DNA of 64,000 nt from Watersipora subatra. Taxonomy: Eukaryota; Bryozoa; Gymnolaemata; Cheilostomatida; Watersiporidae. A program made the translations under genes and the position numbers. The stretch's first letter is position 1; the number at the start of each line of letters is the position of its first letter. The stretch lies in assembly GCF_963576615.1 (NCBI RefSeq), contig NC_088710.1:19835114-19899113 (forward strand), in the 5' to 3' direction. Below are positions 26,901 through 50,773 of this stretch, piece after piece. Under the pieces are notes generated by a model. The model worked only from the letters and a program-made list of their open reading frames with translations, had not been told where the DNA came from and ran no database searches.

Positions 26901-29900
26901 CGAATGCGAGACCTCGGCGGGAATCTCACGCAGCAAAACATTTGCGGCGCTGGGCTCGGCGGCTAATGTTCACATAAAGCTGTGTCGCTGCTGATCGCAT
27001 AAAAATGGCCACTAGCCACACCGTCTCGAAAGTGCTGACCTTCACCTGTACAGGGCAATTTGGGGAGGTTTTACCTGCGGCTCTTCACAAAAGTTAAACA
27101 GCACTGAATTCTTGCGTTGACCGCCGGCAACTACCAGCGTTACTTGGAGCGCAGGCTCACATTTCACCGCTGATAGCCCTGCGGTCGCCGGTGATTGCAG
27201 CGTATATGAGAACCAGGCTTTAAGAGCTAAAAAGTCAAAAAGAAAAGCCGCTATAGTTTTTATAATAAAACCAAAGTAAGGTTCTTGTGAGTCTTGAAAA
27301 TCATCAGTTCAACTGTTCATCAGTTGAGTTCTTCGGCAATATTAAAATAGATGTTAAGCTTCGTATTATTGTTCCACCTTTTAAGCAATTAATGATCCAA
27401 TGAAGCAATTCATCGTAAATTGAACTGACTCACCGATAGACCATCCTTATAACTAAAGTCTCAACATGTCAGCATATCAGACTTGTGACATCACAGACTA
27501 AACATCACAAACTATTTGGAATTAGAATATGAAGAGCAACACTGTTTCCAAGTTTATTTCCATTCAACGAATTCACTGCATATTTTATTTTTGTAGTGCA
27601 TATATATTATTATGAGTGATGGTGGTGTCGTATGTTCATGTAATTACTATTCCATAAAAGGTCTCAACAATTCTAGCTGGTTTACTGATGACATGGAAAG
27701 AGGATGACTCCAAAAGTGAATAACACTTAAAAACTTAAACTTGTAGACTTACAACACCATTTTGTTGCATTTGTGTCAGCACATTAATAACCTCGGCTTG
27801 AAAAGCTGCCATAAGCTGATCTATCTCCGTGCTGTCCCTCCGCAACACAATATGGATCTTTCGTGAAACAGTATTCAGCCCAAGGATGTACTTCTCAACT
27901 GAGTAAAGGTGTTGAAGCTGTGCCAAGTCATCAAGTCTGGCACAACAAAAAACAGAAATGTGAGGAAAGCGGAGGCATTAAAGGTTGCATGGAGATAAAA
28001 TGCATGCATGAAAAGCTCACTACATTGGAATACTCTTACAAGGCACCTCTGCACAATTACCTCAGGAAAGAAAAACTTAGCAGTACAAATTTGTTTTCCT
28101 TCTAAAAATATTCAATTAATGTTTTGAGCAAAAGCAACTTAGTATGCGATTCAGAATAGCAATATTAGCTAATCATACTCAATAAACTAATGCTCTACAA
28201 GCTTTTGGTCGTGTCGCAGAATAATTTGATAACATTAATATTCTATATGAATTTAAAATTTTATTAGGAAATTTTTTATTATGAAATAAAATATCCACAT
28301 TTTATAAGGAAATATTTAAAAACAAAGCAGAAGCCTTAGCCTTGCTTCTGCTTTGTTAAATAATGCAAGGTCAGAAGAGCAGCAATAAACCTGTCTTCTT
28401 CATCATATGTACAGATGGTGCATTTGTGCATATGCTGAATAAGAGTTTATAAGCTCACTTATAAACACCATAAACAGTAGTATATCTAAGGTTAGTTTAG
28501 ATTTAGCTGATCAGTATACATCTCATTTCCTGTTGAAGACAGTCCGTAAAACCAGCCGTTATTTCTGATAAGCGTGATTAAATGGACCATTCTGTTCTTT
28601 ATTGAAAATACTTGTCATGGAAATCTACTGACCTATCTGAGAGTAATCGTAGCTGAGATCCCATAAATATATTAAACCTCCAGTTTGTCTCTATAACACA
28701 AAAGATCATACACATTGGCATGGAACATTCTAATCACATTTAGTTGTGATATAGGATTTACGAAAACATTTTCATAGGAACGTTTAGCTATTTTATACTG
28801 CACACATTACAGACAGTAACACACAATATAATACAACATCCAAGTAATTTTAGGAACTCAAACAATGCGCAATAAAATTTTTGTCTAAAAAACACTGAGG
28901 AATGTTGTACTCGACATAAAGAAAAAACAGGCCAAGTAAAGCATCCTTATTTAATATTATGAGAGTTCTGCTGTTCATTTTTCCAGCTATACAAAGATGC
29001 CAAGGGTGCCGTGTAGCAAAACAGTTCATTCAAAGTGACAAAAGGTGAAGCAAATATGGTGACTTTTCCGGAGAATACAAAAATAGACATACTGAAAATA
29101 ACAGGCTCCCTCATGTTGGTCTCTTTGACTGACAGCAGGCTGACTGTATCCCGCCTAAAGAAGTCTTGCACTAAGATGTGCAGCCTCGCCTGGTTAACTG
29201 TCTCCATGACAACAGAAGTGACGGCTGAGTAGTTGGCCCATAAATGCACACCAGTAAAGATGGTAAACAGAGCCCAGACTAGACTACAAGTAATAAGCTT
29301 AGGCTAAGGAGCCACACAATATATTATAAATTTAAATCAGCTCTTGTCAGCAAACAGCGAGTGTGATTAACAGATGTGATTGTTATACGCAATGTAGCTG
29401 CATAACTTTAGGGATTCTACAATGCATATTACAGTAAAAAAACGTATTCTCATATTGTGTAGCGAAAAGTGTACATCATCTCATGGTATGTACTTACATG
29501 GTTTTAGAATATGTGATATAATCTCGTTGTCATTTAATTACAATTTTGTAATAAAACACCATTTTGTAGTAGGTAAGTTTATAATACCTATCTTACTGTT
29601 TATACGTGATAGATGCATAAAAATATGATATACACCAGCTTGGTAATATATAGAACATAATTTAATATGTTTTTCTTTCAAAGCTTAACACTCGACAGTA
29701 ATTTCCAGCTTAAGATGTTCGCAGTTTTTCAAAGCACTGCAGTTTCATCGTAAAATGTAAAGGGGCTGCTGTGAAGAAGATAAAATATATTAAATGGATA
29801 GAAAGCTAGTATAAACCTCCTCTAGTCTGAGTTAAGAGAAAGTTATGCTTCATACCTTTATTGTAACCTCGATCGTAACCCTTATCATAACCTCTATCAT

Positions 29901-32900
29901 AACTCCTATCATAACCTATATCATAACCTCTATCATAACCGCTTCCTCTGAGGCTACACACACCTTAGCTTACCTGCCTCTATGGTTGAGTAACAATTCA
30001 AACTTTTTTTACACATTATTAATTCATTTTTTATGGGTGTCTTAGTTTTTGTGTCCTATTTTTATATACAATGCGATATTTTAACGTTATGTATAATTAC
30101 CTGCATTGTCTATCAAGGAGTTATAATGTTATAAGGTCGAGAAATGAATTAAATGTATAGCAGTGTATTATTATAGGAACATCTGCTACAATATGAAATG
30201 GTTTTGACAAAAAATCAGTCGGAATGAATTGATTTTGATTTAAAGAGGCTAGCCTGTATATAATTTATAACACAAAAGATAATATATATGATATGAAGTA
30301 CACAATATACTATACAGTTCAACCTCAGTTTTTGAATGTTTTGAACATATATGAGTTTGGAGAGTAAATTTGAGGTGTACTGATTCAGATGCCGAACACG
30401 AACACCTCTAAAATAAGTTTAGGAAATTGAATGACGCAGTTTCACTGTCAACTGATGTGCACATTTTCTCTCTCCTCACTCTCTTGTATCAACTATTGCA
30501 TGTGGACATGTCTGGTGTGTTTAATGAAATACTGTATTTTGTGTTCTGCAAAGAGTTTTAGTGTAGTCTTTTATAGTCAAGTTTTACCAGAACAAACACT
30601 CAGGCTGTTTCTACATTTTCATTTCACACAAAAATTTGAGGAACCAAGGCTGGGGTACGAGTTGCTGCAGACACAGCAATACATTCTCTAGCCTAGCCTA
30701 CTCCATGGATAGAGTATTTATGGTAAATCCAATGTACTTTATGTATTGTCTGCTCTGTTGATATACAGTTTACAGTGTAAAGCAATGAAATACATGTAAT
30801 GCTTAACAAAAGTATTGTCTAGAACAGCCTTCTGGAGAGGATTGTGGTGGAAACTGAGGTTGGGATATACATGTATATACTATATAATATAGTATTGAAT
30901 GAGTATATATAATATAGTATATAATATATACTATATTATATATACTATATAATATAGTATATATAATATACTATATAATATATAGAATGTAATATATAGT
31001 ATACAATATATAGTGTATAATATAATTATAGTATATGCATATATACAACAAGCGATCAGAAAAGGGCTACCGTCATTGTCAGGTCAACATTTCCAATACA
31101 CAGAATTTCGAGAGCATCCAGTCATATACACATAACATACAACATATGTGATATACACAGTACCATATACATTGTAACAGACCTACAACAAATATAATAT
31201 ACACAGTCATATACACGTAACATACATAAAATATATATGATATACACAGGACCATATATATGTACTTGTAAACACTCACAGGTGCTGCTCAGCAACTATA
31301 GGCACCATGAGCAGACTGCAGATGAGAGCCGCGAGGTTGACTAGAGTTTCTTGACTACCGTCTTTGGCAGAAACATCCGCCATATTGTTCCTCCTGGCTT
31401 GATGTAGAGTGAGGGCGGCGCGAGTAGAACCCCCTGCCACACCGACTATTGACTACAAAACATGGTGCTTGATGTAGAATAAGGGTAGAGCGAATGATGC
31501 CCTTACTACTTCAATTATTGACTACAAAACGTGGTCATCAAAGTTACAACAGCAATATCGTGTTTAAACTGGTCATACTTACAACTCAACAAGATGAGGT
31601 TTCCATCTCACAATTAAAGGTTATACCGTAGCCCATAGTTCACAGAATTGATCAATGAAACAAGAGTAAGTGAAGTAGGTGTAAGTCGAGCTCAATGAAA
31701 AGTTTCATTTCATGTATAAAAATGGGCAGAATAATTAGTAATAGTGAAGCATGTAAATTGCGGACTTTATTGATTTCTGAAAAAAAAATTTTAAATACTA
31801 GAAATTCCCCTGTCATACAGCCCACGACCAAAGTGATATTGGAAAAAAAGAAAGGGTACTGATGGTTGAGAAATGCAATATTAGAAGTCAAATGGCACTG
31901 CAGTGCAATAGGATAACTGCAATGGTGGCTGTAATGTACTGGGTGTGGGTGTTATTATATACAACAGATAGCAATAATGAAAGGAAAAGATTATATGTTT
32001 ATATCTCTCCCCTGCAACAGGAGAAATGCAATATTGGCCAATATTAGAAGTAAAATGCACTGATATTATTAGAATAACCAATATTATTAATGTAGTAATA
32101 ATATAAAACCAATGCACAATTTTGTTAACATTTCAAAACGTCATAGCTAACAATATCGAGAAGCTGTGATATTTATATAGATTTTTAGAAAGTCTGTACT
32201 ACGTAGTCATTGTTCTGTAGTCATCCAAACTTATAATTAATTATTGTAATAATCTCATAAGAACCGTTAGAAAAAATATCATCGCCATTTTCTTTACTTA
32301 CACTGCGTTAGACATCAGTTAGAATACCAAAGTACTCAAAATTGTCTAAAATGCCAGTTACTTTGAAATCGGCAAAAATGAAACGATTTCAGTACTCCTA
32401 ACTTAATTACAGAAACCTTCGGCAATTCGACAATGCTATAGACTGGTGAAACGTACACGTTATTTTTTTCGTGAAATGCGCACGACTTAATCGTTCTATT
32501 CTCTGTCGCTCAGCGTTTTAATTTCCGGTCTTAACTTTGATAAAAGTGAGGCTTAGCAAGTTTTAATAACGATTTTTGGCCAAATAAATCTGTCTATTTA
32601 TGTATAATCCGATCAGATGGGTTAGTTTTAGGAATTTGCGGTAACCTTTCAAAGACTTGGTAACATATTTAAATAGGTTTATATGCGTTTTGTATCATTA
32701 TTATACTTAAACGACTTTACTGAAAAATAGTTAAATTTGTTGAAAGGATTTCGTTACAAGGGTTTGGTGACGGCCGTTAACGAATAATTTTTTGGGAGTT
32801 GTGTGCACATGTGCATTTATCATAAATCTCCCAAACCAATCGCTTCGCTCGTGTTTGGTCGTGGGACAATCAGCTGCAGCATAACATAAACTCATGTTGC

Positions 32901-35900
32901 ATGGAGAGTCTTAACAATTTTTATAAAAAAATTCCTTTAATAGCCGTGACAACCTCTGCAATGATTGTTAGAAAGTCAATTTTGAACCAGAAATGCAACA
33001 GTCTGTTAAAGTCTGAGATTCCTACTGGGTAAATGATGATAAATAGAGAAACCAACTTCTCTGGCAGAAATTTCCCTTATTTAGTGCAGTGCAAAAAATC
33101 AAGACAAGGCTGACAGATGTACTAGAAACACAAACAGAACTAATAAAAAATAAAATATCCCAAATCTGCCTAAGCGATTGTTGATATAATTGAGTTAAAT
33201 ATCTGCACATGAGTTAATTTGTTTATAGATTTTTTATGCATTTTAAAACAATGTAGATACAGCTATCTCTGCCTGGTAAAAGAAGAAACATACACGTGTA
33301 TGCCATACCACATGTGCTGAGTTACTAATCACTTGGAATAACTATTGCTAAAGAATCAGCTGAAATTATACTTTTACAACAAACAACATAAAAACCTTGA
33401 TAACTGTGAAAGCTGCAGCAGAGTGACAGTGCAGTATATGTATTACATATATGTATATTCCTTTTTTATACAGTAATAACTCAATACAGCTGAGATTTAT
33501 GTCAAAACCAATTATAGGTTTGTCTCTCTTGATCTGTCAATCATGTAATGTCCCATGTTCAGTCTAAGACGATCTTATTCAGATTTTAATTTGAGTTTTT
33601 TAATAAGTTATTATAAATGTACTCGGGCAAGTGATCCTGTTATGCTGTAGAGCACTACACTATTCAGGTTGAAAGCTTTCAGAATAATAATAATACCACG
33701 ACCAAACGAGCGGAGCGAAGTGTGGGAGTTTTTATGATAAATGCATGTGCACACAACTTACGAAAATTATTCATCAACGATGAGACGAACCATTGTCTAG
33801 AAATTTCATCAACAAATTTAAGCATCGCTTTGTAAAGCCGTTAAAGTATAATAACGATACAAAACACATCTAAACCTATTTAAATATGTTACCAAGTCTT
33901 TGTAAACCGTCGGTATTATCTTAAAACTTACCCATCTGATCGGATTATACACAAATAGACAGATTAATTTCGACAAAATAGCCACAAAACGCTTGAAAAG
34001 CTCAGTTTAATAAAAGTTAAGACCGAAAATTGAAACGCCAATAAAGCCGTTCGACAGATAGTAGAACTATTTAGCAGTGCGCATTTCATGAGAAAACCGT
34101 GCTCATTTCACCAGTCTATGGTATTGTTTACTTGTAATCGAATTTATTCGAAGGTTTCTGTAATAAACGTAGACCGTTTGAGGCGTAGACTGATTTACAG
34201 GTACGAAATTGTGGTACACAGTTTATCAGCCTATGTTTTTTTGTCCAATCACCGAAGGTTTCATTATTAAAAATGTTAGCCGAAATTCTTTACAACTTAT
34301 GTACAAGCTAGGGCCGAACTACAACGCCCCTTTATGACAAGAACATTTTTTATTTTGCTGCAGTTTCAGACGCGTGAATGCTCATACTCGCTTTCTGTTA
34401 AAGATCGTTTATTAAAACCATTCTACATTCAATGCAACCAACTTTCAAACTGTGTATAGTACACAGTAGCTTGCCATTTTACTTCTAATTTTGCATTTCA
34501 GAGTTATAATAAACATATTTCTTTATTGTTGTTGAATTACATACATTACAGTAGATTAGGCCTACAGCTTTATAACACTTTTATAACAGCTTTTATTTTG
34601 CTGCAGTTTGCAGAAATCTTCCAGACGCGTGAACGCTCATAGGTTTTCTATTATTGCTGTATTACTATATTAACAATATTGGTTATTCTAATAATATCAG
34701 TGCATTTTTCTTCTAATATTGGCCAACATTGCATTTCTCCTATTGCAGGGGAGAGATATAAACATATAATATTTTCCTTTCATTATTGCTGTTTGTCATG
34801 ACCAAACACTTTTTAAATAAATTTTCTAAAAATCTATATAAATACCACAGCTTCTCGATATTGCTAGCTATGACGTTTTGAAATGTAAACAAAATTGTGC
34901 GTTTGTTTTCTATTATTACTATACTAGAAATTTCAATGTCATACAGCCCACAACCAAAGTGATATTGGAAAAAAGAAAGGGTACTGATGGTTGAGAAATG
35001 CAATATTAGCAGTCAAATGGCACTGCCGCGCAACAGAATAACTGCAATGGTAGCTGTAATGTACCGGGTGTGGGTGCTATTATATACAACAAACAGCAAT
35101 AATGAAAGGAAAAGATGTTTATATTTTCTCCTTGCAATAGGAGAAATGCAATATTGGCCAATATTAGAAGTAAAATGCACTGATATTCTTAGAATAATCA
35201 ATATTATTAATATAGTAATAATAGAAAACCTATGAGCGTTCACGCGTCTGGAAGATTTCTGCAAACTGCAGCAAAATAAAAGCTGTTATAAATGTGTTAT
35301 AAAGCTGTAGGCCTAATCTACTGTAATGTATGTAATTCAACAACAATAAAGAAATATGTTTATTATAACTCTGAAATGCAAAATTAGAAGTAAAATGGCA
35401 AGCTACTGTGTACTATACACAGTTTGAAAGTTGGTTGCATTGAATGTAGAATGGTTTTGATAAACGATCTTTAACAGAAAGCGAGTATGAGCATTCACGC
35501 GTCTGAAACTGAAGCAAAATAAAAAATGTTCTCTTCATAAAAGGGCGTTGTAGTTCGGCTCTAGCTTGTACATAAGTTGTAAAGAATTTCGGCTAACGTT
35601 TTAAATAATGAAACCTTCGGTGATTAGACAAAAAAACATAGGCTGATAAACTGTGTACCACAATTTCGTACCTGTAAATCAGTCTACGCCTCAAACGGTC
35701 TATGTTTATTACAGAAACCTTCGAATAAATTCGATTACAAGTAAACAATACCATAGACTGGTGAAATGAGCACGGTTTTCTCGTGAAATGCGCACTGCTA
35801 AATAGTTCTACTATCTGTCGAATGGCTTTATTGGCGTTTCAATTTTCGGTCTTAACTTTTATTAAACTGAGCTTTTCAAGCGTTTTGTGGCAATTTTCGT

Positions 35901-38900
35901 CGAAATTAATCTGTCTATTTGTGTATAATCCAATCAGATGGGTAAGTTTTAAGATAATACCGACGGTTTATAAAGACTTGGTAACATATTTAAATAGGTT
36001 TAGATGTGTTTTGTATCGTTATTATACTTTAACGGCTTTACAAAGCGATGCTTAAATTTGTTGATGAAATTTCTAGACAAGGGTTCGTCTCATTGTTGAT
36101 GAATAATTTTCGTAAGTTGTGTGCACATGCATTTATCATAAAAACTCCCACACTTCGCTCCGCTCGTTTGGTCGTGGGATTAATAATATTGATTATTCTA
36201 AGAATATCAGTGCATTTTACTTCTAATATTGGCCAATATTGCATTTCTCCTATTGCAGGGAGAAAATATAAACATCTTTTCCTTTCATTATTGCTGTTTG
36301 TTGTATATAATAACACCCACACCCGGTACATTACAGCTACCATTGCAGTTATTCTGCTGCGCTGCAGTGCCATTTGACTGCTAATATTGCATTTCTCAAC
36401 CATCAGTACCCTTTCTTTTTTTCCAATATCACTTTGGTCGTGGGCTGTATGACAGGGGAATTTCTAGTCTGTATATATATATAGGTTTTAAAGTTTGTTG
36501 TCATCTGTCAGTGTCTGTCCAGCTATAGTTGATTAAAATTTAGCCATCAAAAATCCACACGCCTGAGATTTGATTAAGTCACCAGCACTTCATGAAAAAA
36601 ACATGGACATTTCACCAGTCTATAGCATTGTTTAATTGCCGAAGGTTTTTGTAATTAACGTAGACCGATTTACAGGTACGAAAACGTGGTACACAGTTTA
36701 TCAGCCTACGTTTTTTTGTCCAATTACTGAAGGGTTTTTAAATTATCTAGAACATTAGCCAGATTTCTTTACATCTTATCTACAAGCTAGGGCCGAACTA
36801 CAATGCCCCTTTGTGACAAGAATATTTCTTTATTTCACTACAGTTTGCAGAAAACTTCCAGACGCGTGAATGCTAATGCTTGCTTTCTGTTACATATCGC
36901 TGTCAAAACCATTCTACATTCACAACACAACCAACTTTCAAACTGTATATTACACAGCAGCTTGCCGTTTTACTTTTAATATTGCATTTCAGAGATACAA
37001 TAAACATATTTCATTATTGCTGTTGTTAGTTAAATTACGTAAAGTAGGTTAGGTCTACAGCTTGAATTAATATTTACTTTATTGTTGTAAAACATAAGTT
37101 TGAGATAGTAGTAGATTAGGGTTGATTTTTATATAACCTTTTGTTTTGCATAATTGACCTTTTGAATTTCATTTCAAAACAACTTGACAACTACCATGGA
37201 CATACAACCTCCCAGAACACCACGTCGTCGCAGTGGCCGTCCACGTGTCTCCCAATTATTACGGAGGAGGAGAAATAGAAGTCCTCACCGCAACCATCAA
37301 CATCAAATGCTAATGTTCAACAACACGCTACTCCAAATAATAAAAACAACTCATCTGATTCAGATAATTCTTTAGTAGATGTTGTAGGCGAAGCCTACAT
37401 CCACTAAAGAATTCTACTTTTGTAGAATTCTGACCTGTTGTGACTGCTTTTTCAACAACCAGCAGTACCCATTCTTTTTTCCATTATCACTTTGGTCATG
37501 GGCTGTATGACAGGGGAATTTCTAGTTATTAGTATGTTTAGCGATACGAATGCTAGCTTACTCAAATTAGCCAATGGCAACTACATTACCTGCACCTGTT
37601 TATAAGCTGATTTTTAATACCCGTGCAACGCTGAGCATTCAGCTAATTTTCACTATAATAATATCAGTGCTTGTTTGTCTGTCGCCATGCTGAGAGCATT
37701 GGGAAAAAAGACAGCTTCGCACGGAATCAAACCTAGCGCATCATATTCCAAGGCAAGCTTGCTACTACTACACCACTCACACACCTTCATACTTGATGGG
37801 ATAACTCCCCATATACTGATTACTCCTGATGATCTCTCACAGTATGACTGGCAAGTGTATGACTGCGTATGACTGGCAAGCGCACCAGTAGTAATAATAC
37901 CCACATACTAACTCAAAATACTGATCATAAGGACTATGGCACATAAAGACTAAAGAGTCATATAGATGAAAGTGTCTAATCCATAGCAACTAGGAATACT
38001 GATTTTCAAGGTAGTCTTTATTTATTTTTGACAAGTTAGAATTAAATTTGATGGAACCCAAAGATTTGATCATCTAACGAGTATTTAGAGAAACGTGGTA
38101 ATTTCTTTTGCGACGTTAATTTGCAATATTTGTGAATTTTACTTTATTATGTGCAAAACATGGTTAAAAAAAAGGATTTACCTTACAAACGCCGGCCGTG
38201 CAGACGATAAAAGTGAATGAGAGGGGGAAGAAGGGAGCAGATATCTCCAGACAAATAGCAAAGTCATTTAACATGTCGGCAAACAATCTCCACCTCTTAG
38301 CATCACAATCCAGACTTGACCTACAAACAATTTCCATCTCTTAGCATCGCCATGCAGAATTGACCTACAAACAATCTCCATCTCTTAGAGTTACAATCCA
38401 GACTTGACCTACAAACAATCTCCATTTTTTAGCATCATAATCCAGAATCGACCTACAAATATTTTCAAACTCTGCATCAGAATTCAAATTTTACTTAAAA
38501 ATAGTTTCTAATTGTCAGCATCACAGTTCAGACTTGCCAAAAATAAGCTGTGAGTATATTTTCATGCAAGTACCAGTTGCCTCCTACCAAGGCTCATTGC
38601 TACTGCGAATACTCGATGAATGACATTATGAATATAATTTACAGAATTAAAGCAGAACATCCAAAAAGCTGTTATTAAAGATTAGAACCAGTAACCTCTT
38701 AGACCTATTACAAAGCATTTAATATATCCCACATTGGTTAACAGAGAGACCTATTCCAATGCATTTAATATATCCCACATTGGTTAACAGAGAGACCTAT
38801 TCCAATGCATTTAATATATCCCACATTGGTTAACAGAGAGACCTATTCCAATGCATTTAATATATCCCACATTGGTTAACAGAGAGACCTATTCCAATGC

Positions 38901-41900
38901 ATTTAATATATCCCACATTGGTTAACAGAGAGACCTATTCCAATGCATTTAATATATCCCACATTGGTTAACAGAGAGACCTATTCCAATGCATTTAATA
39001 TATCCCACATTGGTTAACAGAGAGACCTATTCCAATGCATTTAATATATCCCACATTGGTTAACAGAGAGACCTATTCCAATGCATTTAATATATCCCAC
39101 ATTGGTTAACAGAGAGACCTATTCCAATGCATTTAATATATCCCACATTGGTTAACAGAGAGACCTACTCCAATGCATTTAATATATCCCACATTGGTTA
39201 ACAGAGAGACCTATTCCAATGCATTTAATATATCCCACATTGGTTAACAGTTAAACAATCCCTTCAAGATCAAGTATGAGGTTTGCTTAGCATACTTCAA
39301 AGAGAGGCTGTGCTAAGAGCATTGCTACACAAACAATGTGCTCAGTGATATTTCCAAGCGTTTCTCAAAAAAATCCCTTCTTAGAATCGCTGTCCTGCGA
39401 TTCTTTCATTGAGTCCAGGAGACAGTTTCAACAATTCTGAGTCCAGTGGCAAGGAAACCTCACCGACTGGAGACATGCCCAGTTGCGAAGGGAAATTTAT
39501 GGTAAGATGGCCTTCCTGTCACCGCTGTGAGAGTTTTTGATACTATCTAACCTGTTGTTTGCAGGTCAGGCGTTGTAGGCCACCAGACTGCAGCTGCTCC
39601 CTAATTACTACTTGAAAACAATCTCCCAGCATGACCTTTTTATTACATATTGTTTCCAGATCAGCTACAAGCAGCACGATCAGCTACAAGCAGCACGATC
39701 AGCTACAAGCAGCACGATCAGCTACAAGCAGCACGATCAGCTACAAGCAGCTCGATCAGCTACAAGCAGCACGATCAGCTACAAGCAGCACGATCAGCTA
39801 CAAGCAGCTCGATCAGCTACAAGCAGCACGATCAGCTACAAGCAGCACGATCAGCTACAAGCAGCATGATCAGCTACAAGCAGCTCGATCAGCTACAAGC
39901 AGCACGAGCAGCACAGCTTTAAATCTGTGCAGGTATAGCTTTTTATTGGCATTTGTAATCCTCAACAAAATGGTGTTTTTCGTTACATGTCAATAGAAAG
40001 AAAGATAAAAAGACAGAAAATCAGTAATTATTGAGTGAGCTGAAAAATGTATTTTAAAAGTTGGTAATCTATTGGTATTGCAGAGGAGCCAAATTAAGAA
40101 GGATATTGCAGGTTGTAACAACAAAAAGGACAAACTGAAATATATGATGACGGATGTAGTATGTTGGTGTCACGAAATAGAAAATGACGCTGGTCACTTA
40201 CCCTTGATAGCTATTATCAAACACTAGTACACACCCTTGATAGCTAGTATCAAACACTAGTACACACCCTTGATAGCTAGTATCAAACACTAGTACATAC
40301 CCTTGATAGCTAGTATCAAACACTAGTACATACCCTTGATAGCTAGTATCAAACACTAGTACATACACTTGATAGCTAGTATCAAACACTAGTACATACC
40401 CTTGATAGCTAGTATCAAACACTAGTACATACCCTTGATAGCTAGTATCAAACACTAGTACATACCCTTGATAGCTAGTATCAAACACTAGTACATACCC
40501 TTGATAGCTAGTATTAACAACTAGTACATACCCTTGCAACCACGCAAAAAGGATCCTTCCCAGCATACCAGTTCCATCTACAAGTAAGAAATAACTGGAA
40601 CTATAAGGTATCAAACAGACTCAGTGCTAGCTGTAGTCGTAGATCAACACCCATGTCTTTCTTAAGTTGACACCATCGACTATTCATTAAGCAGATAGTT
40701 GAGCTAACGCGAGTGTTTTCTACCGTTTGAATTTATATACATATCGGTCTCGGCCTTAGAATCCACCCGACGAAACATCTGCATTACCGTTACAGAGGCA
40801 ATGAGAAATGAACAACCTAAAGCAGGGCTTCCTGATAATGTGTGCTAATAAGGGGTGCGACCTGTTGTTCGCTAGGGTGCAAGAATCAACCGGGAAGACG
40901 AAGAGTGTATTTGTCATCGCAGCATCTTGCTTATATGAATCCATATTTTCCTCTCTATATATCAAAAGCATAGACCTATTCACTATACTATTAACTATAT
41001 TATACTATAGTTAATAAGTCTATGATCAAAAGTAAGTATAGTAATACCGTCGATCGTGAAAATTATCTGCACATTTCACTCACCCACAACGAGCCGGGTT
41101 TTGATCAGATAATAGCAGAAAACAGGCTGGAAAATTCAAAGATCATATAGTGACTTTTTATGCTGCTGATGTGTGAAAATGTTAAACTTTTCTTAGAATA
41201 ATCTTCCAACTACATATTGTTTTAATATATTTCGAATGTCTTTTTTCATTATGTTTCGAGCTTTTTTTGTTTAATTCAAAACAAGGGGGTGCGAGATTTC
41301 CTTTGTCAGTCGTAGGGGGTTCGGTGATGAACATGAATAGAAAAGCGCTGGTCTAAAGGTTATCCGAATTGTTACAATAGCTAAGTCATGTCATGGGACT
41401 TTGTAAACAATCAATGGAAGGTAACACATATTATTACTGTCTACCAACCATTATCCTCTGGAGACAAGTAAAAATGTCAGAATATCTCAATATTGTTTCC
41501 AGAAGACCAAACTTGACTAGCGCAACCGAATTTAAAGCTACTGCACGAAAGTTGTGACAGGAAGCAATAAATATGATGACAGTTAATAATACCAGCCTGA
41601 ATATCCCACACTCCTAGCAGCCTCCTGTCCTTTAGCAATGTTCAAAAAGAAGTTATAAGTAAATATTTGAGCAAGGTTTGATTTTAAATCTTCACAAAAA
41701 CCAGTGACATCACATATTGCTACTTCTCCAACATAAACCTTCAAGAAGGAATCTAGCAGCAGTGTTTGCAATAACATAATAATACAGTCAAATCTTCATA
41801 TAAAAATTTAGATTAGGCTGCCCCATATATTTAAACCATCCGCTAATATTTTTATAAGAATGCACTGTTATTTGTTTTATTCACTCCCTCACTCAGTTCA

Positions 41901-44900
41901 AAAACATGTAACAACCCCTTAATAAATGCACGTGAATCACACGTAACATTAAAACAAATGCACCATAAAAATAATCTAAAAAAATTGAATGTTACAAAAG
42001 GCATTATATATATATAAAAAATTGCTCTCAATGAAAGCGTTAATGGATTGCTGTCATGAAAGCAGTGTAGCAATTTGTATTGAGAATCTACACGCGGTCT
42101 GCGGGCTAACTGGTTGGAAATAACACAAATCCTAGGCAATGTTGTAAGCTCTGAAAGAGTTTTAGTTGTTACTTTAGATTTGTGACCTTGAACAGGAGTG
42201 AAGGCCCAGCAATGTGTAAGTTCGAGGTAAGATGGAGACTGGGTAGAAATGAAACAAACTTAGCCTACATGTTTTTAAGGTTTTAAAATATTCTGTTGAT
42301 TTAATTTTATACGATCATCTACAAAACCACAATGATTTGACAAACTTTCAGTGTTCAATATATACGAGGGGCGATCGTAAAGTTCCAGGAATTGTCTCAG
42401 TACACAAAAACCGTTAATCGTAATCACTTAATTTAAACTGTCCCCTTCAAAGTAATCGCCTGAGCTTGCTATGCACTTGTCCCATCTGTGTTTCCACTGA
42501 TCCATGCAATGCTGGAAATCACTTTCCGTAAGGCTTCGGAGTTGTCTCATCACATTTTCTTGAATAGTTGGTATGTCGTCAAATCTTTCACCTTTCATTG
42601 TCAATTTGACTTTGGGGAATAGGTAGAAGTCACATGGTGCTAAATCAGGTGAATAAGGGGGATGGTTAAGCACAGTCACCTTATTTTTTGCCAAATACTG
42701 ACGTACCATCAATGAGGTGTGAGCCGGAGCATTGTCATGGTGTAGGTACCAGTCACCTGAGAGCCACAAATCTCGACGTTTCCTTCTGATACTGTCTCTA
42801 AGTCTTATCAGAATGTCTTTGTACACATGCTGATTCACAGTTTGACCATGTGGCAGAAATTCAGAGTGTACCACACCTCTAATGTCGAAAAATGTTATCA
42901 GCAGCGTTTTTACATTTGAGCGAGACATTCTAGCTTTTTTAGGCCTAGGAGAGCCAAGGGATTTCCATTGAGAACTTTGTGATTTGGTCTCTTGGTCATA
43001 ACCATAGACCCAACTTTCATCCCCAGTCACAACTTTTGAAATAAAGTCAGGATCTTGTGTTAAAGCATCTTTTAGTTCGATACAACAGCTAACTCTTTTT
43101 TCTTTTTGGTCGTCAGTGAGCAGTTTGGGTACCATCTTTGCAGAGATCCTTCTCATGCCTAAATCTTCAGTGAGAATAAGATGACATGTACCATAAGAAA
43201 GCCCACTTTCTGCTGATATTTCCCGTATAGTCAATCGCCTATCTCCCATCACCTGCTGCCTCACAAGGTCTGTGGCAGTTGTGGTCCTTGAAGTTGCCGG
43301 TTTGCCCAGCGGTCATCATCTTTAGTACTTGTTCTTCCCTCTCTAAATCTTTTGTGCCATTCATAACAGGCTGTTTTCTTAAGGGCAGAGTCTCCATAAG
43401 CTGTCCGTAACATTTGGAGCGTCTCAGCACCGGACTTTCCAAGTTTTACACAAAATTTTACACAAACGCGTTGCTCTTCTACTTCATTCATTTTCGAAAA
43501 ATCCGACGAACGATAAAAAATGACCTTGACATTACCTACTATAACTTCATTGCGGGTGCTCTGACAAGCGTAAAACTTTGGCTATGGGGAAATCCCGTGC
43601 TGCTTAGCAACATGGAACAATCAAAACAACTGCACATGGTCTTATATTTGACTAGGAAAACGATTCCGGGAACTTTATGATCACCCCTCGTATATAATTT
43701 CCAATATAATTTCAATAATTAGTAATTTTTAATATACAAGTGTTGTATATTGAAAATTACTTCTGGTGTAAACTCAGATTCCCAGTGAATTTACACAAAA
43801 CTTATATGTTGAGGTGGTCATACGTACAGTCCACCCCTGTCACAGATGGTCATACGTACAGTCCACCCCTGTCACAGATGGTCATACGTACAGTCCACCC
43901 CTGTCATACGTACAGTCCACCCCTGTCATACGTACAGTCCACCCCTGTCATACGTACAGTCCACCCCTGTCATACGTACAGTCCACCCCTGTCATACGTA
44001 CAGTCCACTCCTGTCATACGTACAGTCCACCCCTGTCATACGTACAGTCCACCCCTGTCATACGTACAGTCCACCCCTGTCATACGTACAGTCCACTCCT
44101 GTCATACGTACAGTCCACCCCTGTCACAGATTTGCTAGATGTGACAGGATTGTTATTCACTGCTGCTGCAGTCAAGGCAAGGCCAATGATTTTACTGCTG
44201 TTTATCTAGTATTTCGCAATATTATCTCATACTTATTATATACACATTATGTGGCTCTCAGCATGAAGGGCCAGGCTTGTGGAATAGAGCTAGCTAGAGA
44301 GTGGTAGAATAGACGCATGAATAATAAAACCTGCTCTGATACACTTACTGGAACCAACATCTACATAAAAAAATAAAACAACCCCCCACTACATCGGACT
44401 TCACTTCTACGAACTATAAATTGTACTGACAATGTCTGGAGTCTGGATTCCAGACAATGTCTGGAGTCCAGACTAGAGTCATTCTGTCGACAGAGCCTGT
44501 CCGAAGAATGACAGAGCCTGTCCGAAGAATGACAGAGCCTGTCAGAAGAATGACAGAGCCTGTCCGAAGAATGACAGAGCCTGTCAGAAGAATGACAGAG
44601 CCTGTCAGAAGAATGACAGAGCCTGTCCGAAGAATGACAGAGCCTGTCAGAAGAATGACGGAGCCTGTCAGAAGAATGACAGAGCCTGTCTGAAGAATGA
44701 CGGAGCCTGTCCAAAGAATGACAGAGCCTGTCCGAAGAATGACAACTTTGACTGATAGGTGACTTTGACCGACACGAGCAACGCATGCGCCTGAGTGTTG
44801 TACTGTAATTTTCATTTGTTAGAAGTACCTACTGTTATTAATATTATAACAAATATATTATACCCGATTGTAGGTATAACCATACTTTACTCTATCATGT

Positions 44901-47900
44901 GTACTGTATATGCCTATCTATATATATATAAATATCAAAGTTTGTGCGTACTTGTGTAGTTCGGTATGTCCAGTTATAGTTATTAACATCTTAGAACTAA
45001 AAGCCCGCAATCTGCTGGGTTTGAACTTAGGGATATTGCAACCACAAGTTTCAAACCACGCATTTAACCACTGAGCTATATAGTCCTTAGCATTCTATCC
45101 GCTCCTATCATATACCGTATACCTTTTTCTCGATTGCACATGCTAAATGACGTATTAAGTAGAACTCAATGAACTCTATGAAACACGAACATGATGCTTT
45201 TTCGTGTTTTCGTGAACTTCTATTTCCGGTTTTTCGTAAGGTTCAATTGCTAAATTGGTAAAGGCCAAATACTTTTCACGCAAACAATTGTATAATTTTG
45301 AGCAGGAGTAGCCTCTCCATTCTTTCTTTACTTGGCCAGACAAAGACAGTCCGATATTTCATTTTTACATTTGTACCAGTATCGAGAGGTACCAGTATCG
45401 TCGTATTCAATGTTTTGATGGATAGCATCTGCTGGAGCAGTAACCTTTTCTTATAAACACACACTTATGCACAAATTATTTTGTTCTTTTGTTTTCTCAG
45501 TTCATATTAATCGTATCATTTCCAAATCATCTTTTATTGTAATCCTAGCAAAACAGACTTAATTTAGCTATTATTTGCTAATTATTTCATATTTACATCT
45601 AAACATTTTTATAGTTGTTTTATTTTGTTTCTTAATTTATTTGACCAGCTCAAAACATTTTCCTCATGATATGAAATTTGAAAGTTACAATTGTTTGACA
45701 AAGTTCGAAAACCTTTATAGTTGTTTCAGTTTTTTTTCTTAATTTATTTAAACTGCACAAAACACTCATCATAATATGAAGTTTGAAAGTTAAAATGGTA
45801 ACTGCTGTTATATGCTAATTTAATAGAAAATCAGAAAAATAAATATTTTGTGCAAAAATTTTTATTTCCCGGGCATTCAACTAGTTGTACCATACATCTA
45901 CGAGTATATATGCGAGAAAATATGATGTTAAAATTGCCAATGTGCGAACTTCTCAATGTCCGGATATAGCCCAGTTTTTGTTAGTCAGAATGAATGAGGG
46001 TCGACTGCATATGTCCGACTGTAATTCATCAGTAATCATATTCTAGCATTCAAAAATAGAGTCATACCTTTTAAAATCCAGGTCATGGTGGCAGCAAGAG
46101 CTGTAGCACTTTCATCGCCAACTCCAACACCCTTGAGCATCGCCTGGGTTGCCAATGTGCCAGTGATAGAACTGGCAAATGCCTGTCAACAATTAGAATA
46201 AATATATAGCACTAGAAAGTGAACAGTTCAATTAAGTACCCAACATACGATGCACTTGAAGGAGTAGATAACTCCACATAAACTGAGTAGCATCACAGAT
46301 CAAAGAAACTGTCATCGGGAAGCCTGATAAAAAAGAGGGCCTTCTGGCTAGTACAAATGCTCCTGCCATCTCATAACAACACAATATTCCATGAAAAATT
46401 GGTAGTACAAAGGCACATCCACTTACGAAATTAATTCGTTCTGGAAATCATTTCGTAACTGCAAACCTTGTCAGCCTTTTGCCTTTTTCAGATCGGGTTT
46501 GTTCTCAGCAGTGGTTTTGCATGATGCTTCTAATGAACTGATATAGTTAGGTCGATTTGCTTTGGTTAGCTTTAAACAATTGTTTGAAAATGTGGAAGAC
46601 CAACACTATCATAGTGCGATAGCCCAACTAGTAAACACTTTTTCTGGGCGATTCTTTTCAACAAACTCCAAAACTTTATAGAATGTTCCTAAAATATCTT
46701 TAATTTGGGCTGTCAGAGTAATGGCTGCCTCCGAGCCTTTAATGAATTACCCCCGGCACCACCATTTGTTGCATCACCTCCAACTCTCATATTTTTAAAT
46801 TTCGTTCGTAAAAGACAATAATTTCCAAAAAAATGTTTCGTAACCTAAAGATTTTGTATGTAGGTGTACCCTTGTATGTTACAGAGTCATAAAGGGCTAT
46901 TAGTTTTTATCTTACCTGTATAGTATCATAGATCTGGTATAGCAAGTAATCTTCACTCACTGATTCAGGGTATCCTTGAGGTAGGAATACAGACTACAAA
47001 AACAAATTGTATGACTAATAAATCTCGCCTAGAGGTCATAAACTCTTGGCACAATTATAGGTTCAAGACACCTTACAAGGCTGGCTACCAAAGACACCTG
47101 CCAGTAATTAAGCCACAACTCAAAACTAATGCAAATCAGAAGGCTTTACAATTTTGATGGTGCATTGCACATTAAATAATGCTATGAAATTTTCACTCAT
47201 GGTCAGCTATATTCTCAACGCATGAACTTTCACTTTTAATCCACGGGAAATTAATAATACTACGTTTAATATTTAGGACAGGAGACAAACATCCCAAATC
47301 TAGTTAGTAAGTAATAACAGAATTCATTATCAGCACTCAATTGAAACACTGAAATTCGTTTAATCATTCAAAAGTACAGAGAGAAAAGCCAAGCCATCAC
47401 ACCAAAGAATCTACATTACCAAACAACCTTGTGATGCTGTTGGCCTTGAAAATCTTTGAAAAAAAGAGCTTACGCAAGATTTAAAAAATAAAACAGCTGA
47501 ATATCTAGCAAGATAATGCAGTCAAAAAAAACCGTCAAGCATAATTTCCAGATCACTATCAAAAAGAGCGGGTTCATTGTAAAAAAATAAGTCAAAAAGC
47601 TCTTTGAGAAATGTAGGGGAGTATCATAACCAGGGTTATGACCATTACAAAAAATCCTATTTGCGCATTGATACCCAGATGTAAAAGACTTCATAGTTGC
47701 AGCCAATTTTGTCATCTTTATGTAGTTGCATTAGCAAGCATGTCGCGACCATGCAGTATAATTGCATTGCAAACTTTTATTACTACGCAGTACAACTATT
47801 GTCTAATGCGCAGTAAGCAGTATTAGTGCAGTGACGGTGTTACTTACTGCATATTGTGCAGTGCAGTAAGAACTTTTGCATTACACTGTACACATGCACA

Positions 47901-50026
47901 GCACACTTTTGTGAAAACTCATCACAGAATTGAGTTGACTTTGTTGCAATCACACCACAATTGTAAGACGTGAATGCTGCTCAAACTTCAGTATCAATGG
48001 GGAAAAAATTCATCATACTGTTCATGTTGCAAATAGGACCAATATTGAAAATGTTGAAATATGGACCAATGTTTGAGGTTCGGTTATATACATGTATGCT
48101 TGAAATTAGCTCTCACGTAAACACAGTCTATATAAACCTATGTCAGATAGGCATACATAAGCCTATATCAGAAACCAGAATGTCTCAGCCGGACCAGAAG
48201 GGTTGTAGTAGATTTCTCCAGCATCAAATGGTAGGAACACACTCATTCTGCTGAGACCAGATGAGTGATTATATAATTGATGGTAATTACTGCAAGTAAT
48301 CAAAGCCGAAGCTGTGTACGTAATTCAACTTTTAAACACATTGTGGAGAGAACTTCAGGCAATGTGCAGTAAAAGTGAAATTGCGGTACAGAAGCTTGAA
48401 TAGCCGGGGTGTCAGTTAGGCCACAGTAACAACTTCATACTATTGCGCAGTAGCAGTACAGAAGCAGTTCCAAATGTGGAAGAAGGTACATACGCAGTGA
48501 GCATGAATTGCTGGGTTTCAGGTAATGCATCATGAAAATAAATGCGCAGTAGATCGAAGAGTGGAACTTGAAGTAGGAGCCACGTTGCAATAGTAGTAAG
48601 CTTACTGGGAATTAGAAATCTGTTATGCAATGCAAAATTACTGTGTGCTACGCTGCTATGAGCAGTGCAGTTCCAACATGTCACAGTTAAAACCCTGTCA
48701 TAATCTTTGGCAGGGATAATTCCTTGTTAAAAGTGACTAATTACTCTCAACTTAGTTATATATAAGTTGAGAGTAATTAATAATATTACTAATACTTGTG
48801 TTGAAAGATAAAAGTGGTAATTCAAAATTTACTTCCACATAACAATTACATCTCGGATATGCATATTCAGCGTGAGAGAATTCATGCTTCTATGGATGCA
48901 ACTAAAGATAGCATTTGCTTTTAAATTCTTTTGTTCACTTTTCAAGCTTGATCAGTTGTTTATACTGTTAATACATTGCTCTTCTTTTAAAATCCCTATT
49001 TTCTATCTCATGTTCCAAGCCAATTAGTTATTTTGCATGAATAATACATTCGTTATTTTCTGTCAAACAATGAATTGCATATGAATAATTTTATACTGTG
49101 TTCCATCGCTAACTACCTCTAGTTTTTATAGGTTTTCAGCAAAAGTTAAACATAGACACATAATTTTGTAACACTCAAACATTCCCATCATTAATGACTA
49201 CTACTGATAGAAGCGGTCATCGACGTATTTAGCAATAATATAGTAGCATTTATAGTCTAATTAGCTCCTAAAAAATATTTAACAAAAACATTTTAATGAA
49301 GCTTTCAAAAGAACGACAAGACTCAATACCGGGCCGTACCACTAAACAACGAACTCATCATTGCAAGACCCAATTACAGTAATTATGTAGTATGCTAACA
49401 AAGAGCCCTAAATAACATACACTAAACAAAAAAGTTTTGAGAGCAATGTAGCTTTTTCAAATATTTAGGCGCCATTGAGATATTAACTATACTATTAATG
49501 ATATTGCTATTAATTATTACTATTGAATATTAAATGATATTATTAATATCATCAATAACATTAATATTATAGAATATTAAATGATAATAATATTAATAAT
49601 ATATAAATATTAAATGATATTATTATTAAATATTACTACATTAATGATATTACTATACTATTAATGATAGGAACTGATTGATAAACTTATCAAGCTACTG
49701 TCATAGCGCAAATTTCCTGTTTAAAGGAAAAGGGTTGCAATGCCTACGTGAAAGTGAGTATTAACTCACTAAAGCTAGTAGATCAGCAATTCTTCAATTT
49801 TAAGAGCGTTCAAGATTAGCTAAAACAGCATATTTTATGATCAACAGAGGTCACATTAATTGTGCGGTCCACAGAGGGCCACGGAGTTACTTACCCGAAA
49901 TGCATGGCCAATGGACTGGAACGTTTCTTTTTTATTTTCAATAATTTTTACTGCACCAGTTGCAGTACAAACGTAACGCTGGTTTAGGGTCGTTGAACCA
50001 TATTGTTCGTCAAATAGCACAGCCAT
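23996..50026 (-). CDS. RUSF1: RUS family member 1 (DUF647, ROOT UVB SENSITIVE family)
   Basis: Twelve minus-strand exons: 49895-50026, 46916-46993, 46068-46182, 40532-40577, 38182-38320, 31280-31452, 29093-29283, 28633-28690, 27753-27936, 25583-25631, 24395-24448, 23996-24150. Phases agree and give about 457 aa, close to human RUSF1 (468). Recognisable blocks: SVFLPQGYPESV (exon 2), GTLATQAML (3), GTGMLGRILFAW (4), WRLFADMLNDFA (5), HQARRNNMADVSAKD (6), LHILVQDFF (7), and DEWRASW at the end (12). Plant RUS1/RUS2 act in UV-B response and vitamin B6 homeostasis; the animal function is unknown. The protein is predicted to be membrane-associated, with hydrophobic stretches in exons 3, 6 and 7. 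Exons 10 and 11 rest mainly on splice signals and phase. The start used is MAVLFDEQYG; an in-frame ATG 25 codons upstream is possible. The exon-4 donor and exon-5 acceptor are both copied by tandem arrays. Confidence 0.9.
25075..25460 (-). repeat. composite tRNA-derived SINE-like element, copy 2
   Basis: Matches the element at 4985-5440 along its length, including the tRNA-like segment (25148-25212; minus strand CATAGCTTAATTGGTAATAT and GGTTCCAAGATCAAATTC). A (TA)n tract (25055-25075) is at its minus-strand 3' end. In RUSF1 intron 10, just below exon 10. Confidence 0.7.
26877..27221. mobile_element. GC-rich MITE-like element
   Basis: A sharply GC-richer block of about 345 bp in AT-rich intron. 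Its ends are imperfect inverted copies: AAGCATAGTTTGGGACCATA at the left and, in reverse from the right, AAGCCTGGTTCTCATATACG. The CCTGGTTCTCATA terminus is common in PIF/Harbinger-type MITEs. No coding frame. Confidence 0.5.
31798..32866 (-). mobile_element. Helitron-like non-autonomous element, copy H1
   Basis: Read on the minus strand it starts TCCCACGACCAAAC (32866) and ends GGGGAATTTCTAG (31798) followed by T. A TC start and CTAG end with no inverted repeats or target duplication is the Helitron pattern. Parts recur at 33.7-36.5 kb and 36.6-37.5 kb. A weak stem (CTGT-ATG-ACAG) lies about 15 bp before CTAG, weaker than a classical Helitron hairpin. In RUSF1 intron 5. Confidence 0.55.
33698..36179. 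repeat. long inverted repeat, arms about 1.09 kb
   Basis: 33698-34797 is matched in reverse by about 35090-36179, with only scattered differences and small gaps, around a spacer of about 290 bp. Anchor pairs: CCACGACCAAACGAGCGGAG (33696) with its reverse at 36178; GACGCGTGAACGCTCATAGG (34624) with its reverse near 35233. The arms are built from Helitron-like sequence. The right arm plus spacer side (34924-36179, minus) looks like a full copy from TC to CTAG. Confidence 0.85.
34924..36179 (-). mobile_element. Helitron-like non-autonomous element, copy H2
   Basis: Minus-strand start A|TCCCACGACCAAACGAGCGG at 36179, end AAATTTCTAG|T at 34924. Insertion between A and T, as Helitrons do. About 1,256 bp, mostly open to stops; no Rep or helicase motif. 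A further partial copy (36180-36467, plus orientation) abuts it and also ends CTAG|T. Confidence 0.6.
36180..36467 (+). mobile_element. Helitron-like 3'-terminal fragment
   Basis: Same sequence as the terminal module of H1 and H2 in the opposite orientation, ending GGGGAATTTCTAG followed by T. Starts exactly where H2 begins, at the CCCACGACC junction. Confidence 0.55.
36473..36585 (-). repeat. composite SINE-like element, copy 3, 3' part
   Basis: Contains the (TA)n tail and the CTGTCCAGCTATAGTTGATT body of the family, then breaks off where Helitron-like sequence begins. The 5' part of the same family resumes at 37538-37660, in the same orientation. Confidence 0.6.
36590..37525 (+). mobile_element. 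Helitron-like copy with a short basic open frame
   Basis: 36590-37010 matches the 34100-34560 arm sequence. The end at 37522-37525 is CTAG followed by T, with the GGCTGTATGACAGGGG terminal module just before. Inside, 37196-37375 encodes a short basic peptide starting MDIQPPRTPRRRSGRPR that ends soon after. It may be the N-terminal remnant of an element-encoded protein whose remainder has been lost, but no Rep/helicase motif can be seen. Confidence 0.5.
37538..37660 (-). repeat. composite SINE-like element, copy 3, 5' part
   Basis: Matches 5240-5390 and 25330-25450 (TTACTCAAATTAGCCAATGG, CTACATTACCTGCACCTGTT). Lies directly after the CTAG end of the Helitron-like copy that appears to split the element. 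Confidence 0.6.
38321..38500. repeat. 44-bp array duplicating the RUSF1 exon-5 acceptor
   Basis: On the minus strand, TTGTTTGTAG|GTCAAGTCTG marks the exon-5 acceptor at 38321. The same junction recurs at 38365, 38409 and 38453, exactly 44 bp apart, with the exon's next 25 or so bases copied too (GATTGTGATGCTAAGAGATG with changes); further units fade out by 38500. Confidence 0.9.
38701..39250. repeat. 46-bp minisatellite, 12 nearly identical copies
   Basis: Unit: AGACCTATTCCAATGCATTT followed by AATATATCCCACATTGGTTA and ACAGAG. Only the first copy (CTATTACAAAGCATTT) and one later copy (CCTACTCC) differ. In RUSF1 intron 4. The homogeneity points to recent expansion. Confidence 0.96.
39657..39915. 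repeat. 19-bp minisatellite, about 13 copies
   Basis: Unit AGCTACAAGCAGCACGATC with A/T changes. In RUSF1 intron 4. The long frames across it are artefacts of repetition. Confidence 0.95.
40202..40531 (-). repeat. 33-bp array duplicating the RUSF1 exon-4 donor; possible optional coding extension
   Basis: Ten exact 33-bp units follow the minimal exon 4. On the minus strand each ends CTAGCTATCAAGG|GTATGT (or a variant), the same CAAGG|GT junction as the exon-4 end at 40532. Candidate exon ends: 40532, 40499, 40466, 40433, 40400, 40367, 40334, 40301, 40268, 40235, 40202. The last is followed by GTAAGT, the two before it by GTGTGT, the others by GTATGT. No stop occurs until the TAA formed inside that final GTAAGT. 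Each unit encodes 11 residues (GYVLVFDTSYQ). Confidence 0.95.
40823..41350. mobile_element. short non-autonomous hAT-like element (528 bp)
   Basis: Left end CAGGGCTTCCTG; right end in reverse CAGCGCTTTTC. Flanking octamers ACCTAAAG and GTCTAAAG match at 6 of 8 positions. In RUSF1 intron 3. Confidence 0.7.
42365..43690 (-). mobile_element. mariner element, 1,326 bp, both ends intact
   Basis: Ends read inward as CGAGGGGCGATCGTAAAGTT and CGAGGGGTGATCATAAAGTT, flanked by TA on both sides. It holds a mariner transposase gene on the minus strand, split into two frames. In RUSF1 intron 3. Length and organisation are those of a complete mariner. Confidence 0.95.
42428..43491 (-). pseudogene. mariner transposase (DD34D) with one frameshift
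   Basis: The N-terminal frame starts at ATG 43491 and carries the helix-turn-helix DNA-binding region (RVCVKFCVKLGKSG ... ALKKTACYEWHKRF). The frame shifts at about 43300-43312, where one base appears to be missing; if read on uninterrupted it meets a stop. The C-terminal frame (to 42428) carries the catalytic residues: Asp in TGDESWVYGYD, Asp in HHDNAPAHTS, and Asp in YSPDLAPCDFYLF, with 34 residues between the last two. Family members are about 350 aa, so nothing else appears lost. Cut-and-paste transposition with TA targets is expected of the family. This copy should be inactive unless the apparent shift is a sequencing error. Confidence 0.93.
43815..44130. repeat. 22-bp minisatellite (first units 32 bp), about 14 copies
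   Basis: Unit CATACGTACAGTCCACCCCTGT; the first two repeats carry an extra CACAGATGGT. In RUSF1 intron 3, close to the mariner. Confidence 0.94.
44490..44750. repeat. 21-bp minisatellite, about 12 copies
   Basis: Unit GACAGAGCCTGTCCGAAGAAT with C/A and A/G changes. Being seven codons long, it leaves open frames on both strands. No splice or similarity evidence for coding. In RUSF1 intron 3. Confidence 0.94.
44905..45110 (-). repeat. tRNA-derived SINE-like element, copy 4
   Basis: The clearest tRNA-like head of the family: minus strand 45086-45014 reads GGACTATATAGCTCAGTGGT (A box) then AAGTTCAAACCCAGCAG (B box). The body has GTCCAGTTATAGTTATTAAC and a (TA)n tail at 44915-44935. It diverges upstream from copies 1-3, suggesting that only the tRNA head and tail are shared. 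Confidence 0.72.
45600..45900. repeat. diverged dispersed repeat, also at 51530-51690
   Basis: TTCTTAATTTATTTAAACTG...CATCATAATATGAAGTTTGA recurs within this stretch (45640 and 45740) and again at 51530-51690 (AACTGCACGAAAACACTTTT, GATATGAAGTTTAAAAGTTA). The class is unknown. Confidence 0.5.
46408..46874. mobile_element. TA-flanked MITE (467 bp), Tc1/mariner-like ends
   Basis: Ends read inward as CAAAGGCACATCCACTTACG and CAAGGGTACACCTACATACA, each flanked by TA. No coding frame. In RUSF1 intron 2; the right end lies about 40 bp from exon 2 (46916). Confidence 0.68.
47631..48697. mobile_element. non-autonomous hAT-like element (about 1.07 kb)
   Basis: Left end CAGGGTTATGACC; right end in reverse CAGGGTTTTAACTG. 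Flanks ATCATAAC and TCATAATC share a shifted TCATAA core, so the target duplication is likely but imperfect. Inside, TGCGCAGTA/GTGCAGTAA motifs repeat in both directions near both ends, like the subterminal binding sites of hAT elements. In RUSF1 intron 1. Confidence 0.62.
48698..49894. other. RUSF1 intron 1, AT-rich remainder
   Basis: Includes an ATTAATGATATTATT-type low-complexity tract at 49480-49670. No exon or element recognised. Confidence 0.5.
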
Positions 50027-50461
50027 CTCATAGCAATAAGTTTTGGCCCGATAAAGTATATGGAAAGGAAAAAGTGTGTGGAACATAATAGAATTGTGCA
50101 AACTTGACCCGCACTACCCAGGATGTGTTGAATTTCATTTATCGGGGACCGTGATAAAGGAGCCCGTAATAAAAGCTAAATGCGCATAACAGAATTTGCC
50201 ACATACTGATATCTGAGTGGACGTTTTCTCAGACTCGCTTTACCTGAGTGGACAGTAGCAAATATCCGCACACACTGCAAATATATTTCATAAGCTGCGC
50301 AACGGACGGCCTGGCGGAATTACACCGGTTGTTTCGGTTTTGTGGCCACATGCGTTTATTTTAATTCCAACTCTATAGCTCATATAGAGCGAAGTGTAAT
50401 ACATATTAGAGAGGCTAGTTTACTATTATACGAAAGTTTCAACTCGCCCATTACATCAAAC
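50027..50461. promoter_or_regulatory. candidate bidirectional promoter of RUSF1 and TMEM14
   Basis: Only about 435 bp separate the divergent start codons of RUSF1 (minus, 50026) and TMEM14 (plus, 50462). The stretch contains a repeated CTGAGTGGAC motif (50213 and 50243) and is less AT-rich than the surrounding introns. No TATA box is obvious. Shared promoter use is inferred from spacing. Confidence 0.5.
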
Positions 50462-50773
50462 ATGGACGTTATTCATCTTCTTTACGGTTCTCTTGTCGCT
50501 GCAGGAGGTGTCTTTGGTTATGCCAAGAGTGGCAGCACTGCAAGTTTAACTGCTGGCCTTATATCTGGTGGCCTCATAACGCTTGGAACCTATCTAGCCT
50601 CTACTGGCAAAGATACTCTTGGTCAGGCTCTCGTGGCTTTTACTGCTCTCGGGTTAACCTTTGCGATGGGAAAGCGCTATATGAATTCGCATAAAATGAT
50701 GCCAGCGGGCATAGTGACAATTATTAGTGTGCTGATTTTACTGCGAATGATCTACGAACAGTTTCTTAAATAA
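50462..50773 (+). CDS. TMEM14: TMEM14 family small membrane protein
   Basis: A single uninterrupted frame of 103 aa starting MDVIHLLYGS and ending YEQFLK. It is a complete TMEM14/UPF0136 protein (human members 99-114 aa): Gly- and Ala-rich hydrophobic segments at about 4-21, 28-47, 55-70 and 78-97, and the conserved HKMMPAGIV motif before the last. TMEM14C in mammals is an inner mitochondrial membrane protein needed for haem synthesis; TMEM14A is linked to apoptosis control. I cannot tell which paralogue this is. The frame is open 40 codons upstream without an ATG, so the start at 50462 is firm. It is intronless here, unlike the vertebrate genes. Divergent from RUSF1. Confidence 0.92.
   Translation: MDVIHLLYGSLVAAGGVFGYAKSGSTASLTAGLISGGLITLGTYLASTGKDTLGQALVAFTALGLTFAMGKRYMNSHKMMPAGIVTIISVLILLRMIYEQFLK

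Follow-up and report, generated by a model that had tools for sequence, protein, structure and literature searches.

Mirages, described in amphioxus, are minisatellites that span an intron/exon boundary and are reported to leave splicing undisturbed (PMC3087553; PMC3902484). They occur at both 5' and 3' boundaries, RT-PCR is said to suggest that splicing is regular, and the mirage of one globin gene comprises 6 units in one haplotype and 3 in another (PMC3087553). Regular splicing is also stated for further amphioxus mirage genes (PMC3902484). These papers are what our literature search for mirages and boundary minisatellites led to; it yielded no bryozoan intron with tandem repeats at its splice sites, with most subscription journals lying outside its reach. 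The human gene IFI6 (G1P3, 6-16) is said to have been described by Turri and colleagues in 1995 as carrying a minisatellite with multiple splice donors. Its downstream repeat units are reported to serve as donors, giving three mRNA species (PMC4526556).

The RUSF1 gene of Watersipora subatra contains a splice-boundary minisatellite that is probably of the amphioxus mirage kind, here in a bryozoan. As in the mirages reported for Adh3, the globins BflGb6 and BflGb9 and TnC, and in the similar repeats of PGBD5, the boundary is present in tandem copies, many with AG/GT (PMC3087553; PMC3902484), and the 33-bp unit falls within the 10-72 bp given for the Adh3 mirage. Unlike the amphioxus mirages, the RUSF1 case belongs to another phylum and shows boundary arrays at both ends of one intron. 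The splicing of amphioxus mirages is reported as regular; that of RUSF1 may be so as well, the deposited protein lacking the array. RUSF1 resembles IFI6 in that every repeat unit supplies an in-phase donor at an exon end, but a form with the insert was not found at E <= 10 among 8000 scored candidates, in contrast to the three mRNA species of IFI6. Finally, tandem duplication copying splice signals is shared with a reported intron gain in a potato RdRp gene (PMC4974935), except that the boundary copies of RUSF1 sit inside an existing intron.

RUSF1 occupies positions 23996..50026, on the minus strand, of the 64,000-nucleotide stretch of DNA analysed here (the window), which spans C3:19835114-19899113 of the assembly. 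Its model of 12 coding exons, read from 50026 to 23996, runs without a stop across 457 residues from the modelled ATG. The product exceeds both Pfam cut-offs that define RUS1/DUF647 membership, with 329.6 bits for PF04884 (cut-off 28.3; E 1.6e-98) and 92.3 bits for PF24160 (cut-off 20.7), and the five matches to PF04884 in the assembly of 783,720,542 bases all lie inside the window. The best protein match is a deposited RUS family member 1-like protein of W. subatra (P0001), identical over the entire query (100%), which is the same protein with 20 additional N-terminal residues encoded in frame upstream. The identity of the gene, proposed in a preliminary description made from the letters alone, is supported, as are the two junctions on which it relied: exon model and P0001 agree that exon 4 (46 nt, 40532..40577, minus strand) ends at 40532 with the proximal donor CAAGG/GTATGT, where the slash marks the junction, and that exon 5 (38182..38320, minus strand) starts at 38320. 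Intron 3 harbours the remnant of a mariner-like transposon (42431-43581, minus strand) whose open frame is split in two, the frame at 42431-43312 matching Transposase_1 (E 7e-14). An open frame of the TMEM14 family (50294-50770, plus strand; PF03647, E 2.3e-22) stands head to head with RUSF1, and a vanin/biotinidase-like open frame lies at 61869-63224 on the plus strand (PF19018, E 1.3e-18; PF00795, E 2.7e-15).

The donor array lies at the start of intron 4 (40199..40536, minus strand), where TRF delimits 338 bp made of 10.2 copies of 33 bp with 97% matches, that is, ten units and a partial eleventh. Each unit corresponds to 5 nt from the end of exon 4 followed by 28 nt from the beginning of intron 4. 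Eleven donors result, at exact 33-nt steps and in the phase that matches exon 5, so that exon 4 could end at 40532, 40499, 40466, 40433, 40400, 40367, 40334, 40301, 40268, 40235 or 40202. The array is not a chance pattern. The preliminary description had recognized this regular series and its preserved phase, and both hold, the exon-4 frame being the only one without stops. Its account of the units requires some correction. GT is present at all 11 junctions, and CAAGG/GT at 10 of them (CAAGG/GTATGT seven times, CAAGG/GTGTGT twice and CAAGG/GTAAGT once, at the distal end), while the junction at 40367 (40367..40371, minus strand) reads CAAGT/GTATGT. Similarly, the announced 11-residue segment GYVLVFDTSYQ is exact in 6 of the 10 units and altered in the other 4. 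A 131-base piece of the array had three matches in the genome, all within the array itself, in a search that skips very common words.

Preservation of the frame is weak evidence for coding, since a given frame is open in 39.8% of 20,000 shuffles of the 33-bp unit and about one period in three would be a multiple of three anyway. Among the units there are 5 nonsynonymous changes of 72 possible and 1 synonymous change of 22; two of the six fall in the 9 donor positions and four in the remaining 24. These six changes, a small number, carry no signal of selection on the 11-residue repeat. Matches of the repeat peptide to the Pfam domains tify and AcnX_swivel fall under their cut-offs.

Several lines of evidence bear on whether the array contributes to the protein. 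First, the deposited annotation (P0001) joins 40532 to 38320 and lacks the array. Second, a search using words drawn from the insert, placed within a full-length hypothetical protein and run without a positive control, scored 8000 candidates of a database clustered at 90%, and at E <= 10 none of them carried the insert. Third, all 34 aligned sequences, P0001 included and chosen among 120 listed of 1243 found, are gap-free over P0001 residues 53 to 176 and share the glycine that intron 4 splits. Together with the lack of constraint on the units and the frequency of open shuffles, these observations indicate that the donor array is most likely intronic, and RUSF1 would probably carry it mostly silently. 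We give a probability of about 80% to a mirage-type array in which splicing mainly takes the donor and the acceptor nearest their exons (40532 and 38320), so that the array would be removed with the intron and the protein left unchanged. The sequence shows that a 33-bp segment across the end of exon 4 has been multiplied in tandem toward the intron. The array most likely grew through slippage or unequal exchange between units, and the deposited protein and the conservation of the region suggest that the spliceosome mainly takes the outermost sites.

The main fact against an intronic array is that the distal donor outscores the proximal one. Using a position weight matrix, together with computed U1 duplexes, the distal donor AGG/GTAAGT (40196..40204, minus strand) reaches 6.2 versus 3.4 for 40532, with duplex values of -10.8 versus -7.6, which makes it the strongest of the eleven, as had been claimed. 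Among the 1615 GTs of the gene, 5 score as high as 40202 and 44 as high as 40532. The inner donors score 3.4-3.8, apart from the CAAGT donor (-0.7), and the median of 11 real RUSF1 donors is 3.5. RNA structure was considered as a factor favouring one donor and does not discriminate, the chance of an unpaired 9-mer being 0.003-0.058 at all eleven for a regional mean of 0.069.

The alternative that fares best is the ladder of isoforms put forward in the preliminary description, in which several of the eleven donors would be appreciably used and the number of 11-residue segments in RUSF1 would range from 0 to 10, as has been reported of IFI6/6-16. Every donor is in phase and none brings in a stop, hypothetical splices with 1 or 10 units remain open through to the normal end, most inner donors are about as strong as the median real donor, and a human minisatellite is reported to supply alternative donors. 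We nevertheless regard it as improbable, given that a single form is deposited and lacks the array, that the insert search came back empty, that none of the 34 aligned sequences has an insertion at the junction and that the repeat peptide shows no constraint. Minor use of inner donors may still add multiples of 11 residues. The same description had also envisaged that 40202 could be the main donor, the normal protein then having about 110 extra residues. This donor ranks first on either measure, matrix score or U1 pairing, and is the closest to the acceptor, but P0001 has no such insert, no protein bearing it appeared among the 8000 candidates, and its presence would break a block that is gap-free in 34 of 34 sequences; constitutive inclusion thus appears highly unlikely. 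HiFi reads are much longer than the 338-bp array, and the differences among its units are scattered. An error in the array or in its copy number is hardly credible in a HiFi-based assembly with a reported primary QV of 63.2 (PMC12902671), even though one amphioxus draft mirage was judged aberrantly assembled in a supplementary legend.

The favoured reading, removal of the array with intron 4, finds support at the other end of that intron. What is new in RUSF1 is that the intron 4 acceptor is covered by a separate array, of 44 bp (38280..38459, minus strand; TRF and junction copies), and that exon 6 is preceded by a decayed duplicate of its acceptor. Upstream of 38320, at distances of 44, 88 and 132 nt, copies of the exon 5 acceptor share 35, 34 and 33 of 40 bases with it and retain both TTTGTAG/ and the exon start, so that tandem units cross the boundary on the donor side (33 bp) and at intron 4/exon 5 (44 bp), with splice signals kept in the three clear acceptor copies as they are in the donors. 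Two fainter candidates share 27 and 24 of 40 bases, the latter within noise. As functional acceptors, the five upstream positions were rejected, as all 15 combinations with three donor choices (0, 1 or 10 units) stop early. The decayed duplicate before exon 6, which covers its acceptor and first bases (31453..31521, minus strand), lies 69 nt upstream, matches at 28 of 40 bases and leads to a stop if used. At donor 4, acceptor 5 and acceptor 6, P0001 fits the exon-most copy in all three cases.

Intron 4 further contains a 46-bp minisatellite of 12.0 copies (38701..39250) and a 19-bp minisatellite of 13.4 copies (39659..39912), both read on the minus strand and detected by TRF away from splice sites; arrays account for 1276 of its 2211 bases. 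Across the window, 46 TRF rows were merged by hand into 32 intervals, which cover 10.1% of the RUSF1 span and about 9.9% of the window. With this coverage, the encounter of arrays and splice sites is unsurprising: 2 of the 22 RUSF1 splice sites fall inside arrays, versus a mean of 2.2 under circular shifts, and special targeting of splice sites within the gene is not shown. Near copies of at least 28 of 40 bases accompany 3 of the 22 junctions; of 400 positions drawn at random, 7.75% attain 29.

Elsewhere in the W. subatra genome, the evidence that arrays with donors recur is suggestive. Triples, defined as a motif repeated within gaps of 8-38 nt, were counted genome-wide against reversed motifs and non-donor anagrams. 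Counts reached 3735 for AGGTAAGT versus 270 for its reverse and 2678 for AGGTATGT versus 1390 for its control, with 786 and 841 for a pair of non-donor anagrams; a few long arrays dominate these counts and the control motifs themselves range from 270 to 1390, hence the donor excess is no more than suggestive. The acceptor motif TTTTGTAG gave no excess genome-wide (195 triples versus 528 for the control). A stricter pattern, CAGGTAAGTG, whose matches were fully listed, gave 58 matches in 10 arrays versus 1 control match. At least 60 open codons precede the first donor in 5 of these 10 arrays, versus 10.3% of 4000 random window positions, and the chance of 5 or more is 0.002, a value possibly biased by the choice of array starts, 8 of which were picked by eye and 2 taken as the first GGTAAGT of the stretch. 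No clear exon is seen at the remaining five.

Exon bases are visibly part of the unit in two of the five open-frame arrays. The array at C1:1.75 Mb, in a gene that we take to be FAM135-like, has a 34-nt unit with about 11 nt common to the exon end, its better copies matching at 33-37 of 50 bases; its exon and the next together give a weak DUF676 match (E 0.002, below cut-off). The array at C2:38.48 Mb has a 40-nt unit with about 17 nt common to the exon and 40-41 of 50 bases identical. Since three divides neither 34 nor 40, the phase-keeping of RUSF1 may well be luck. Three exon-like stretches compared with Pfam exceed no cut-off, and for the open-frame array at C3:52.16 Mb, considered as tRNA-like, ARAGORN finds no tRNA. 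A separate 28-bp array (G000:C1:3480598-3483097) contains CAGGTAAGT in every listed unit, with at least about 88 matches.

Eleven near-identical, phase-matched donors at a single exon constitute a natural experiment in 5' splice-site choice, in which the best-scoring donor lies furthest from the one implied by the deposited protein. The RUSF1 intron framed by two arrays and the repeated occurrence of arrays with donors in the genome are what deserves further attention. We tentatively propose, as a possibility that we consider rather doubtful at present, that minisatellites of W. subatra recur on 5' splice sites, such that many introns, perhaps hundreds, would start with ladders of near-equal donors. 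Duplication of their boundaries would then lengthen introns from the edges, and the exon-most copy would be chosen even against a stronger inner copy, thereby keeping splicing accurate. If this were true, W. subatra would offer a natural setting in which to test the choice that the spliceosome makes among near-identical donors.
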